From: Catenulispora acidiphila DSM 44928
Lineage (GTDB): Bacteria; Actinomycetota; Actinomycetes; Streptomycetales; Catenulisporaceae
Direction: 5' to 3'
Length of the DNA: 64,000 nucleotides
NCBI RefSeq assembly: GCF_000024025.1
Contig: NC_013131.1
Location: forward strand, 2,232,001 to 2,296,000
A model generated the notes under the pieces. The model was not told the DNA's origin, ran no database searches, and saw only the letters and a list, made by a program, of their open reading frames with translations. This document shows positions 37,570-58,046 of the stretch, piece after piece. A program made the position numbers and the translations under genes. Every line of letters starts with the position of its first letter. Positions within the stretch are counted from its first letter, which is position 1.

Positions 37570-37642
37570 TGCGCCGCCAGGGACTTGAACCCCGAACCCG
37601 CGGATTAAGAGTCCGCTGCTCTGCCTATTGAGCTAGCGGCGC
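37570..37642 (-). tRNA. tRNA-Lys (anticodon CTT)
   Basis: Read on the minus strand from 37642, the cloverleaf is complete: 7-bp acceptor stem GCGCCGC/GCGGCGC, 4-bp D stem GCTC/GAGC, 5-bp anticodon stem GCGGA/TCCGC with loop CTCTTAA (anticodon CTT, reading AAG), 5-base variable loop and a T arm with TTCAAGT loop. The total is 73 nt with discriminator A and no encoded CCA. No repeat of its 3' end was noticed that would mark an integrated element. Confidence 0.97.
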
Positions 37643-53683: not shown

Positions 53684-54883
53684 ATGCCGGATTCCGGACG
53701 CCGGTGGCGCGGGCTCGCCGCGGCGCTCGTGGTGCCTCCGCTCCTGACGGCCGTCCTGACGACCCTCACCGAGCGCCTGAACCTGAGCAGCCAGGTCCTC
53801 ATCTACCTGGTCGCGCTGGTCGCGATCTCGCGGCTGTGCGGGATGGTCCCGGCGCTGGTGGCCGCGGTGTGGGCGGCGCTGCTGCTGGACTACTACTTCA
53901 TCTCGCCGGTGCACACCTTCCGCATCGCGGTCGCCAACGACGTGATCGCGTTCTCGGCGTTCGTCATCGTCGCGGTGACCGTCGCCTCGGTGGTCGAGTA
54001 CTCCGGCAAGCAGTTCCGGCGCGCCACGCAGGCCGCCGCCGAGGCGGCGCAGCTGGAGGCGGCAGACCGGATGCGCACCGCGCTGCTCAACGCGGTCTCC
54101 CACGACCTGCGCGCCCCGCTGGCGGCGGCGCGCGCCTCCGTGGACACCCTGCGCGACGAGCGCTTCGAGCTGTCCGAGGCCGAGCGCGGCGAACTGCTCG
54201 GCGCCGCGCACACCTCGCTGGGGAAGCTTTCGCGGCTGGTGGAGGATCTGCTGGACATGTCACGGTTGCAGTCCGGCGCGCTGAAGCCGCATCTGGAGGT
54301 GGTCGCCGTGGACGAGGTGATCCCGCGCGCCATCGACGACGTGCCGGCGGCCGCGGGCCGCGTCACCTACGCCGCGAGCCCCGGCGTCCCGGCGGCGCTG
54401 GCCGACGGCGCACTGCTGGAACGCGTGGTCGCCAACCTCGTCGGCAACGCCGCCAAGCACACCGACTCCCGCATCGAGCTGACCGCCGGCGCCTCCGCCC
54501 CGCGCGGCGCGGACGACGTAGACGGCACAGACGACACAGACGACACAGACGGCGCGGACGCTCCGAACGGTCCGGACCGCGGGCACGCCGCCACCGGCGG
54601 CCAAGCCCAGAACCCCAGCGGCGACAAGGTGGAGATCCGCGTGATCGATCACGGTCCCGGCATCCCGGTCTCCGACCACGAACGCATCTTCCGTCCCTTC
54701 CAGCGGCTCGGGGACCGGGACAACACCGCGGGCGTCGGTCTCGGCCTGGCGCTGGCCCGCGGACTGGTCGAGGCGATGGGCGGCGAGCTGCGTCCGGAGA
54801 CGACGCCCGGCGGCGGGCTGACGATGGTGGTGGCGGTGCCGGCCCGGACGGCGGCCGACCCGGCGGAGGGGGTGGCGCGGTGA
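53684..54883 (+). CDS. Sensor histidine kinase, short KdpD-like
   Basis: A 399-residue kinase with a GGGAGGG ribosome site. The N-terminal DUF4118-type membrane part has hydrophobic segments at about 10-28, 36-70 and 86-105. The histidine box A-V-S-H-D-L-R-A-P-L has His140; N-box (V-V-A-N-L-V-G-N-A-A-K-H), D-H-G-P-G-I-P and G-L-G-L-A-L-A-R-G-L follow. The large N-terminal KdpD and Usp domains of full-length KdpD are absent. A D/T-rich insert with four 9-base DNA repeats (54521-54556) lies between the N- and G-boxes. Its stop overlaps the regulator start. Confidence 0.9.
   Translation: MPDSGRRWRGLAAALVVPPLLTAVLTTLTERLNLSSQVLIYLVALVAISRLCGMVPALVAAVWAALLLDYYFISPVHTFRIAVANDVIAFSAFVIVAVTVASVVEYSGKQFRRATQAAAEAAQLEAADRMRTALLNAVSHDLRAPLAAARASVDTLRDERFELSEAERGELLGAAHTSLGKLSRLVEDLLDMSRLQSGALKPHLEVVAVDEVIPRAIDDVPAAAGRVTYAASPGVPAALADGALLERVVANLVGNAAKHTDSRIELTAGASAPRGADDVDGTDDTDDTDGADAPNGPDRGHAATGGQAQNPSGDKVEIRVIDHGPGIPVSDHERIFRPFQRLGDRDNTAGVGLGLALARGLVEAMGGELRPETTPGGGLTMVVAVPARTAADPAEGVAR
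54521..54556 (+). repeat. Four 9-base tandem repeats in the kinase gene
   Basis: Units GACGGCACA, GACGACACA, GACGACACA and GACGGCGCG lie in frame and encode a D-G-T-D-D-T-type acidic insert in the ATP-binding domain of the histidine kinase. They may vary in number between strains. Confidence 0.8.
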
Positions 54884-55590
54884 AGCGGTTGCTCGTCGTC
54901 GACGATGAGGCGCAGCTGTTGGTGGCGGTCCGCATCAACTTGTCGGCGCGCGGATACGAGGTGAGCGTCGCCCCCGACGGCACCACCGGCCTGGCCGTCG
55001 CCGCGCGCCGTCCCCCGGACCTGGTGGTCCTGGACCTGGGCCTGCCGGACATGGACGGCGTCCAGGTCATCGACGGACTGCGCGGCTGGACCACGGTGCC
55101 GATCCTGGTGCTGTCCGGGCGCACCGAGTCCTGGGACAAGGTCGAGGCGCTGGACGCCGGCGCCGACGACTTCGTCACCAAGCCCTTCGACATGGACGAG
55201 CTGGCCGCGCGGGTCAGATCGCTGCTGCGGCGCGCGGAGCCGGAGAACGCGACCGGGCCGGTCATCCAGGTCGGCCACCACCTCGTCGACCTCGCGGCCC
55301 GCACGGTCAAGCGCGCTCCCGGGGCGCCCTCGGACGTGCCGGAGTCGGTGCGCCTGACCCGCACCGAATGGGCCGTGTTGGAGATGCTGCTGCGCCACCC
55401 CGACCGCCTGGTCTCCAGCAAGCAGCTGCTGGCCCATGTGTGGGGGACCGAGCACGAGCCGGAGGGCAGCTATCTCCGCTTCTACCTCGCGCGGCTGCGG
55501 CAGAAGCTGGAGCCCGAGCCCTCAACTCCGCGCCAGCTGCTGACCGAGCCGGGCATGGGCTACCGCTTCCAGCCGCTGGGCAGCCCGTAG
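54880..55590 (+). CDS. Response regulator, KdpE-like (OmpR family)
   Basis: A 236-residue regulator, GTG start at 54880 overlapping the kinase stop by four bases. The receiver domain has V-V-D-D-E with Asp8/Asp9 and phospho-acceptor Asp52 in L-V-V-L-D-L-G-L-P. The C-terminal winged helix has L-T-R-T-E-W-A-V-L-E-M-L-L and Y-L-R-F-Y-L-A-R-L-R-Q-K-L. Overall layout is that of KdpE. Because a KimA-like potassium transporter follows, potassium control is inferred. Confidence 0.92.
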   Translation: MKRLLVVDDEAQLLVAVRINLSARGYEVSVAPDGTTGLAVAARRPPDLVVLDLGLPDMDGVQVIDGLRGWTTVPILVLSGRTESWDKVEALDAGADDFVTKPFDMDELAARVRSLLRRAEPENATGPVIQVGHHLVDLAARTVKRAPGAPSDVPESVRLTRTEWAVLEMLLRHPDRLVSSKQLLAHVWGTEHEPEGSYLRFYLARLRQKLEPEPSTPRQLLTEPGMGYRFQPLGSP

Positions 55591-55700
55591 GGCATCCGTG
55601 CGTCAAACGTGGTCACCGGATCGTGAGACGTGAGGCGCCCGGGAGAAATAATCACTGAACGATAGTGATTTCGGGGTGCCCCGGCCTTAGGCTCGCGGTC

Positions 55701-58046
55701 GTGCCTAGTGCTTTGGGGATCGTCAAACGGGTCATGGTCGGCCGGCCGATGCATAGCGAGATGCTCGGCGAGACCTTGCTCTCGAAGAAGATCGCGCTGC
55801 CGGTGTTCGCCTCCGACGCCTTGTCGTCGGTCGCCTACGCCACTGAGGAGATCCTGCTTGTCCTATCGGCCGGCGGCCTGGCGCTGCTGCACTTCACGTG
55901 GTGGATCGCGGCGGCGGTCGGACTGCTGATGCTGGTGGTCGTCGCCTCCTACCGGCAGAACGTGCACGCCTACCCCTCCGGCGGCGGCGACTACGAGGTC
56001 GCCACGACCAACCTGGGCCCGAAGGTCGGGCTCACGGTCGCCAGCGCCTTGATGGTGGACTACATCCTCACCGTCGCGGTGTCGGTCTCCTCCGGCGTGG
56101 CGAACCTCGCCTCGGCCTTCCCCGCGCTGAACTCGCACGTCGTGCTGATCGCGGTGGCGGTCATCGCGGTCATCACGCTGCTGAACCTGCGCGGCGTCCG
56201 GGAATCGGGCACGGCGTTCGCGATCCCGACGTACTGCTTCGTCGTCGCGGTCGGCATCATGATCGTGACCGGGCTGATCCGGATCGTGTTCGGCAGCGGC
56301 CTGCACGCCGAGAGCGAGCACTACACGATCTCCAACACCAAGCACTACAGCGGCGTCCTGCTGATCTTCCTGCTGCTGCGCGCCTTCGCCTCCGGCTGCA
56401 CCGCGCTGACCGGCGTCGAGGCGATCAGCAACGGCGTCCCGGCGTTCAAGCCGCCGAAGAGCAAGAACGCCGCGACCACCCTGGCGCTGCTCGGCGGGAT
56501 CGCCGTCGCGATGTTCGCCGGCGTCACCGCGCTGGCCCTGGCCGGCCACGTCCACGCCGCCGGCGCCACGGACCTGGTCGGGCTCCCGGCCGGACAGCAG
56601 CCGCGCACGGTCATCGCGCAGGTGTCGCGCTCGGTGTTCGGCGGCTCCTCGCCGTTCTTCTTCGTCCTGCAGTTCGTCACGGCGCTGATCCTGGTGCTGG
56701 CCGCGAACACCGCCTTCAACGGTTTCCCGGTGCTGGGCTCGATCCTGGCCAAGGACGGCTACCTGCCGCGCCAGCTGCACACCCGCGGCGACCGTCTCGC
56801 GTTCTCCAACGGCATCCTGCTGCTGGCCGGCTTCGCGACGCTGCTGGTGGTGGCGTTCAACGCCTCGCCCACGCGGCTGATCCAGCTGTACATCGTGGGC
56901 GTGTTCGTGTCCTTCGTCTGCTCCCAGACCGGCATGATCCGGCACTGGAACCGGCTGTTGCGCACCACCGGGGACCCCGCTGAGCGCCGGCGCATGATGC
57001 AGTCGCGCGTCATCAACGCCGTCGGCGCCGGCGTCACCGCCGCGGTGCTGGTGATCGTGCTGGTGACGAAGTTCGCCAAGGGCGCCTGGATCGTGGTGCT
57101 GGCGATGCCGATCATCTGGCTGATCATGCGCGCGATCAACCGCCACTACGCCGCGGTCGCCCAGGAGCTGACGCCCTCCGACGAGGCCGCCTTCAGCCTG
57201 CCGGCCAACAACCACGCGATCGTCCTGGTCTCCAAGCTGCACCTGCCGACCCTGCGCGCCATCGGCTACGCCAGCGCCACCCGCCCCAGCACGCTGGAGG
57301 CGGTGACGGTGAACCTGGACGACGCCGAGGTCGAGGTGCTGAAGGCGGAGTGGGAACGCCGCTCGATCCCGGTCCCGCTGACCGTGATCGCCTCGCCCTA
57401 CCGGGAGATCACCCGCCCGATCATCGAGTACGTCAAACGGGTCCGCACCGAGAACCCCGACGACGTGGTGACGGTGTACATCCCGCAGTACGTGCTCGGC
57501 CACTGGTGGGAGCAGGTACTGCACAACCAGTCCGCCCTGCGTCTGAAGAGCCGGCTGCTGTTCCAGCGCCGGGTCGTGGTCGCGGCGGTGCCGTACCAGC
57601 TCCAGTCCGCCACGGCCCGCATAGAGGCGGCCAAGGCGCAGAGCTCGTTCCAGGGGAGTGCCATGACCAAGCCCAAGCCGCCGCGCCAAAGGACCCGGCT
57701 GCAGAAACTGACGGCGGAGACCGACGAGCTGGAGGCCGCCGAGCTGTCCCAGGAGGTCTCGCCGAGCGGCGCCACGCCGATCGCCGACTGCCCGGACCGC
57801 CAGCCGGTGATCCTGGCCGGGACGCTGCGCACGGTGCGGCTGCGGCCGCGGGCCGGAGTGCCGGTGCTGGAGGCCGATCTGTGGGACGGCACCGGGTCGG
57901 TGACCGTCAGCTGGCTCGGCCGGCGCCAGATTCCCGGGATCGCGCCGGGGCGCCGGATCATGGTGCGCGGGCGCATCACGACGACCGGCGGGCAGCGCGC
58001 GGTGTACAACCCGATCTACGAGCTGCGGCCCGGTCCGGCGGACTGA
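55701..58046 (+). CDS. kimA: KimA-like potassium transporter fused to an OB-fold domain
   Basis: A 781-residue protein from a GTG at 55701. The first 650 residues match the KimA/APC potassium uptake family: A-S-D-A-L-S-S-V-A-Y-A-T-E-E-I near residue 40, A-Y-P-S-G-G-G-D-Y-E-V, F-A-S-G-C-T-A-L-T-G-V-E-A-I-S-N and Q-T-G-M-I-R-H-W, with about 12 membrane spans and a soluble C-terminal domain ending A-A-V-P-Y-Q-L. From Met655 on, about 127 residues form a separate OB-fold nucleic-acid-binding-like domain, which other actinomycetes encode as a lone gene. An internal AGGGGAG site and ATG (57663) could also start it separately. Neighbouring KdpDE-like genes suggest potassium control. Confidence 0.82.
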   Translation: MPSALGIVKRVMVGRPMHSEMLGETLLSKKIALPVFASDALSSVAYATEEILLVLSAGGLALLHFTWWIAAAVGLLMLVVVASYRQNVHAYPSGGGDYEVATTNLGPKVGLTVASALMVDYILTVAVSVSSGVANLASAFPALNSHVVLIAVAVIAVITLLNLRGVRESGTAFAIPTYCFVVAVGIMIVTGLIRIVFGSGLHAESEHYTISNTKHYSGVLLIFLLLRAFASGCTALTGVEAISNGVPAFKPPKSKNAATTLALLGGIAVAMFAGVTALALAGHVHAAGATDLVGLPAGQQPRTVIAQVSRSVFGGSSPFFFVLQFVTALILVLAANTAFNGFPVLGSILAKDGYLPRQLHTRGDRLAFSNGILLLAGFATLLVVAFNASPTRLIQLYIVGVFVSFVCSQTGMIRHWNRLLRTTGDPAERRRMMQSRVINAVGAGVTAAVLVIVLVTKFAKGAWIVVLAMPIIWLIMRAINRHYAAVAQELTPSDEAAFSLPANNHAIVLVSKLHLPTLRAIGYASATRPSTLEAVTVNLDDAEVEVLKAEWERRSIPVPLTVIASPYREITRPIIEYVKRVRTENPDDVVTVYIPQYVLGHWWEQVLHNQSALRLKSRLLFQRRVVVAAVPYQLQSATARIEAAKAQSSFQGSAMTKPKPPRQRTRLQKLTAETDELEAAELSQEVSPSGATPIADCPDRQPVILAGTLRTVRLRPRAGVPVLEADLWDGTGSVTVSWLGRRQIPGIAPGRRIMVRGRITTTGGQRAVYNPIYELRPGPAD

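Follow-up and report, generated by a model that had tools for sequence, protein, structure and literature searches.

A KimA-type potassium transporter fused in frame to an OB-fold domain in Catenulispora

At positions 55701–58046 on the forward strand of the window (the whole 64,000-nucleotide stretch of DNA that we analysed), Catenulispora acidiphila encodes a KimA-type potassium transporter and an OB-fold domain in one uninterrupted reading frame of 781 codons followed by TGA. The fusion is not a chance run-through: the architecture is kept in all ten sampled members of the genus. From comparisons of sequence, gene order and predicted structure, we consider it likely that the OB domain serves K+ uptake of the KimA type as an accessory and probably regulatory subunit.

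Layout of the fusion and identity of its parts

The features of the locus, with the evidence for each in brackets where it is not given below, are as follows.

53684–55590, + strand: two-component genes upstream of the fusion (Pfam; same potassium neighbourhood in related genera)
53684–54883, + strand: DUF4118 histidine kinase (Pfam)
54886–55590, + strand: KdpE-like regulator (Pfam)
55701–58046, + strand: kimA–OB fusion gene, 781 aa (open frame; conservation from residue 2 onward in ten species)
55722–57602, + strand: KimA-type transporter, residues 8–634, with a 12-TM APC/KUP domain and a cytosolic c-di-AMP-type domain
57603–57800, + strand: linker, about residues 635–700 (AlphaFold; in-frame indels only)
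57652–57658, + strand: AGGGGAG, remnant Shine–Dalgarno site of a formerly separate OB gene (genus and sister-genus comparison)
57663–57665, + strand: internal ATG, start codon of the OB gene before the fusion (genus and sister-genus comparison)
57801–58028, + strand: OB-fold domain, about residues 701–776, of the RPA/RecG-wedge/aspartyl-tRNA-synthetase type (PF01336, AlphaFold, structural Z)
37570–37642, − strand: tRNA gene, the sole Rfam match in the window

The GTG at 55701 is the likely translation start, since sequence conservation begins there; a GTG at 55665 is a possible upstream alternative. The AlphaFold model of the full chain has a confident transporter part, with predicted TM helices followed by an α/β cytosolic domain, then a low-confidence stretch and, set apart, an OB barrel. 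The linker begins with a helix (residues 635–653), and the stretch 648–689, which holds a further helix (667–686), has pLDDT values below 50. No NCBIfam model scored above its cut-off, and the Rfam scan of the window found no ydaO-type riboswitch and no RNA other than the tRNA.

Residues 8–634 align with residues 5–605 of KimA from Bacillus subtilis (PDB entry 6s3k; E = 1.5e-129), a K+/H+ symporter of the KUP family for which PDB entries 8b70 and 8b71 are also available, and the alignment spans the whole transporter and the cytosolic domain. In the B. subtilis protein K+ is bound by Asp36, Tyr43, Thr121, Thr230 and Tyr377, Glu233 serves proton coupling, and c-di-AMP is contacted by Arg337, His579, Asn580, Gln581 and Ser582 (PMC6994465, PMC10284832). 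All of these residues are identical in the fusion, as are the further K+/H+ residues Asp117, Tyr118 and Asn237. Judged by this alignment, the N-terminal 634 residues are a KimA-type K+/H+ symporter. The cytosolic domain probably binds c-di-AMP, and a diadenylate cyclase gene is present in the C. acidiphila genome. KimA of B. subtilis is 607 residues long and stops after the cytosolic domain, whereas the fusion continues into the linker and the OB domain; the B. subtilis protein functions without any OB domain (PMC6994465).

The OB domain is more divergent in sequence. Residues 703–765 match PF01336 with an E value of 7.5e-5 in the full protein and 5.2e-6 when the OB part is searched alone; the score of 26.7 bits lies just below the curated cut-off of 27. 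Among 50 relatives, 43 match PF01336 at E values up to 0.01 (the best being 1.2e-7), and three of the 50 members match RecG_wedge, a weak sequence match. With this and the KimA match in one open frame, the claim of the sequence-only reading that a transporter runs in frame into an OB fold holds. The predicted structure is clearer: strands at 702–776 form an OB barrel in the full model, and the OB part folded alone gives a five-stranded barrel with strands at 48–122 (own numbering) and core pLDDT values above 90. It matched the structure of RPA (PDB entry 3e0e; VIA Z of 13.2, r.m.s.d. of 2.1 over 88 residues), with Z values of 12.5 for PolC (3f2c), 12.4 for the RecG wedge (1gm5) and about 11.5 for AspRS. 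These proteins, including the anticodon-binding domain of AspRS, thus share the fold at a sequence identity of 11–22%; their OB folds belong to enzymes that work on nucleic acid, whereas that of the fusion hangs on a membrane transporter. When the OB domain was searched by sequence against the PDB, the sole matches, designed WRAP repeat proteins, were judged spurious.

The OB core of this lineage, fused or separate, is strongly basic (net charge of +5 to +8, pI of about 11.5–11.6), and nucleic-acid binding is plausible for it. In a second type of fusion, described below, the core is near neutral (median net charge of +1), so that nucleic-acid binding is not implied for the family as a whole. 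As the cytosolic domain of KimA sits inside the cell (PMC10284832), the fused OB domain should be cytosolic too.

Retention in the genus and origin from neighbouring genes

The sequence-only reading had allowed for a sequencing error at the junction and had pointed to relatives as the place to look for the fusion. In each of the nine further genomes of the genus that were sampled, it is present as an open full-length frame (88–95% identity). As these genomes were sequenced independently and their linkers differ in length, an error of sequencing or assembly that joined two genes is refuted, and we give it a negligible probability. In a codon alignment of the ten species every indel in the linker is a multiple of three and there is no stop. 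The dN/dS ratio is 0.12–0.25 in all segments (medians of 0.12 for the TM part, 0.17 for the cytosolic domain, 0.23 for the linker and 0.17 for the OB domain), and purifying selection thus acts on the whole chain, the linker and the OB domain included.

Sister genera show where the two parts came from. In these (G010–G012; loci L014–L016) KimA has its own stop and is followed 37, 46 or 60 bp on by a separate OB gene with its own strong Shine–Dalgarno site and ATG, which agrees with the suggestion of the sequence-only reading that the domain is separately encoded elsewhere. The OB gene of L014 is in the frame of kimA and a single TGA is the sole stop between them; the other suggestion, that two neighbouring genes were joined by loss of a stop, fits this arrangement well. 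Since sister genera hold the two genes side by side, and in one case one TGA apart, the most likely origin of the fusion is a single event at the base of the genus.

One TGA also means that little change was required for the fusion, and this favours the main rival to the subunit reading: a neutral read-through, in which a stop was lost and the OB domain retains its former function (on RNA or DNA, for instance) while being simply attached to a transporter. It is likewise in keeping with this rival that the OB core of the fusion is 54–61% identical to the separate OB proteins and equally basic. We nevertheless consider it unlikely, for reasons that lie in the second fusion and the gene neighbourhood described below.

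The sequence-only reading had also proposed that the OB part is made alone from an internal start. The site itself is there: AGGGGAG stands 4 nt before the in-frame ATG at 57663, with a Shine–Dalgarno pairing energy of −8.0 kcal/mol, and a start codon is kept at this place in all ten species (ATG in nine and GTG in one). As a functional feature it fares less well. Among the ten species the Shine–Dalgarno site is clear in five, altered in two and absent in three, so separate production of the OB domain is not conserved; the pairing energy is similar in five further species, weakened to −5.7 in one and at background (−1.7 to −2.1) in three. Sites of equal or greater strength precede 20 of the 198 internal in-frame ATGs of the window (about 10%), and the site alone is thus unremarkable. 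The separate OB genes of the sister genera have far stronger sites (−10.0 to −15.7). Synonymous divergence at the junction is higher, not lower, than elsewhere in the gene (0.84 versus 0.30–0.40), and thus gives no sign of constraint for initiation. The pairing energies, the orthologues and the synonymous rates do not support a dual start as a conserved feature. By comparison with the sister genera, translation of the separate OB gene once began at the internal ATG, and the retention of a start codon in all ten species can be explained as a relic at the divergence of the genus. Internal initiation in C. acidiphila is possible but is not a conserved property, and we regard one gene with two products, the fusion and the OB domain alone, as rather improbable.

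A second, older KimA–OB fusion

C. acidiphila has a second KimA–OB fusion (L002, 1402–3849; genome 8903070–8905514). It has the same order of transporter, cytosolic domain, linker and OB domain, and its OB domain carries the GRR and NPxY signatures of the first, but the two fusions are only 35% identical. In the second type the transport residues are retained, but HDRT stands in place of the c-di-AMP motif HNQS, a change by which this type may have lost or altered c-di-AMP control. It is present throughout the family, the named relatives of the L002 fusion being from Catenulispora, Actinospica and Actinocrinis. Among 395 genomes drawn from the class, 64 have a match to the second type at E values up to 1e-120; in 59 of them the alignment extends through the OB region, and the same holds for 11 genomes outside the class. 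Fused genes make up 69 of the 80 named second-type loci, including those of Kitasatospora, Embleya, Frankiaceae, Pseudonocardia and many Acidimicrobiaceae. TrkA-type genes lie within 3 kb in 27 of the 69 cases, and the neighbours of the second fusion are often two trkA genes. The fusion, described as unexpected in the sequence-only reading, is thus less unusual than was thought, having an ancient counterpart both elsewhere in this genome and in the wider phylum.

The OB tree (99 columns, with weak inner forks) nests the group of the first fusion with separately encoded OB domains from its own order at 100/100 support, apart from the second type. The KimA tree, a quick tree without bootstrap, agrees with it, and the supported branches force at least four label changes; both trees mark the split between the fused lineages with a star. 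As both trees place the fused groups apart, the two fusions are independent: on these trees the KimA–OB fusion arose at least twice in the phylum, with the second type being the older.

Several further KimA-like proteins were noted. Second-type proteins of Streptomyces, Kitasatospora and Streptacidiphilus at nine loci (L055, L058, L061, L131, L132 and L135–L138) are without the OB domain, which was apparently lost; where the older fusion appears to have lost it, in Streptomyces and Streptacidiphilus, the domain is thus dispensable. In members of family f6 (L078, L079, L081 and L106), BLAST aligns the C-terminal tail with the OB region although the OB profile does not detect it, and this tail may be a divergent or decaying OB domain. 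A third KimA-like protein of C. acidiphila (L003, L004; genome 3759405–3761339) has no detectable OB domain and sits on a very long branch. Among the named loci, for which a sampling bias is possible, many genomes with the second fusion are from acidic environments: those of Catenulispora, Actinospica acidithermotolerans, Aciditerrimonas and Pseudonocardia acidicola, and genomes from bog and palsa. KimA of B. subtilis serves K+ uptake at low pH.

The potassium neighbourhood and the role of the OB domain

Separate OB genes stay close to kimA. In all 28 genomes in which both a separate OB gene and kimA were listed, the two share a contig and a strand and are separated by 95 bp to 10.7 kb. The KimA-like proteins of Streptomyces (for example Vnz_27465) are orthologous transporters, 60–62% identical in the sampled Streptomycetaceae-type genomes, but there the OB domain is encoded by a separate gene about 2.4–10.7 kb upstream of kimA on the same strand. 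The locus number of Vnz_27465 directly adjoins that of Vnz_27460, an RCK_C protein (PMC10117811). In L035 the order is a histidine kinase, a KdpE-like regulator, the OB gene, a DUF3159-like membrane protein, two TrkA-type genes, kimA and an RNA methyltransferase-like gene, the last four names being given by resemblance. The same kind of kinase–regulator pair directly precedes the fusion in the window and the separate OB gene in L035; in the window, Pfam found DUF4118, HisKA and HATPase domains in the kinase (53684–54883) and no KdpD or USP domain. A cluster in Mycobacterium tuberculosis was used as a lead.

A search of the C. acidiphila genome (a single contig of 10,467,782 bp) found no separate OB gene of the fusion's family, apart from a weak third match to the OB profile (E = 1.1e-5; L194, genome 9319216–9319482) that lies within a 758-residue open frame.

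These observations weigh against a neutral read-through. The same two families were joined a second time, independently and much earlier; the separate OB genes remain near kimA in every genome where both were listed; and no separate OB copy of the family was found in C. acidiphila. Two independent fusions, a conserved kimA/trkA neighbourhood and the lack of a separate copy are classical signs of a functional partnership, and from them we infer that KimA and the OB domain are partners both physically and functionally. Conserved neighbourhood and fusion are, however, a sign of linkage rather than of mechanism.

In the ancestor of the family the OB domain was a small protein of its own, with its gene next to kimA, and loss of the intervening stop in the ancestor of the genus made a single chain. 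The partly disordered linker of ∼65 residues tethers a basic OB domain to what should be the cytoplasmic side of the symporter. If the OB domain is a subunit of KimA-type uptake, as is most likely, the fusion would fix the ratio of KimA to OB at 1:1 (2:2 in the homodimer). The OB domain would tune transport or tie it to a signal in the cytosol, for which RNA, another nucleic acid or a nucleotide is a speculative candidate, as in the idea of the sequence-only reading that potassium status could be linked to RNA or nucleotide sensing. In a broader and quite doubtful version of the proposal, OB subunits, separate or fused, would be a general regulator of KimA/Trk K+ uptake in Actinomycetota that senses RNA or a nucleotide beside the control by c-di-AMP; K+ import would then follow the nucleic-acid content or the translation state of the cell.

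In the part of the literature that we searched, which covered OB folds in connection with KimA, trkA and fusions, potassium uptake and APC permeases as well as Rv2694c, neither the architecture nor the role of the OB domain is described, and OB-fold proteins beside potassium genes are annotated as nucleic-acid-binding without an assigned role. The two independent KimA fusions and the kimA/trkA neighbourhood yield an easily tested prediction, namely that the OB protein is a subunit or a regulator of potassium uptake. If this is true, a gene that is widespread in Actinomycetota but lacks annotation would be explained, and the control of K+ would gain a second input besides c-di-AMP.
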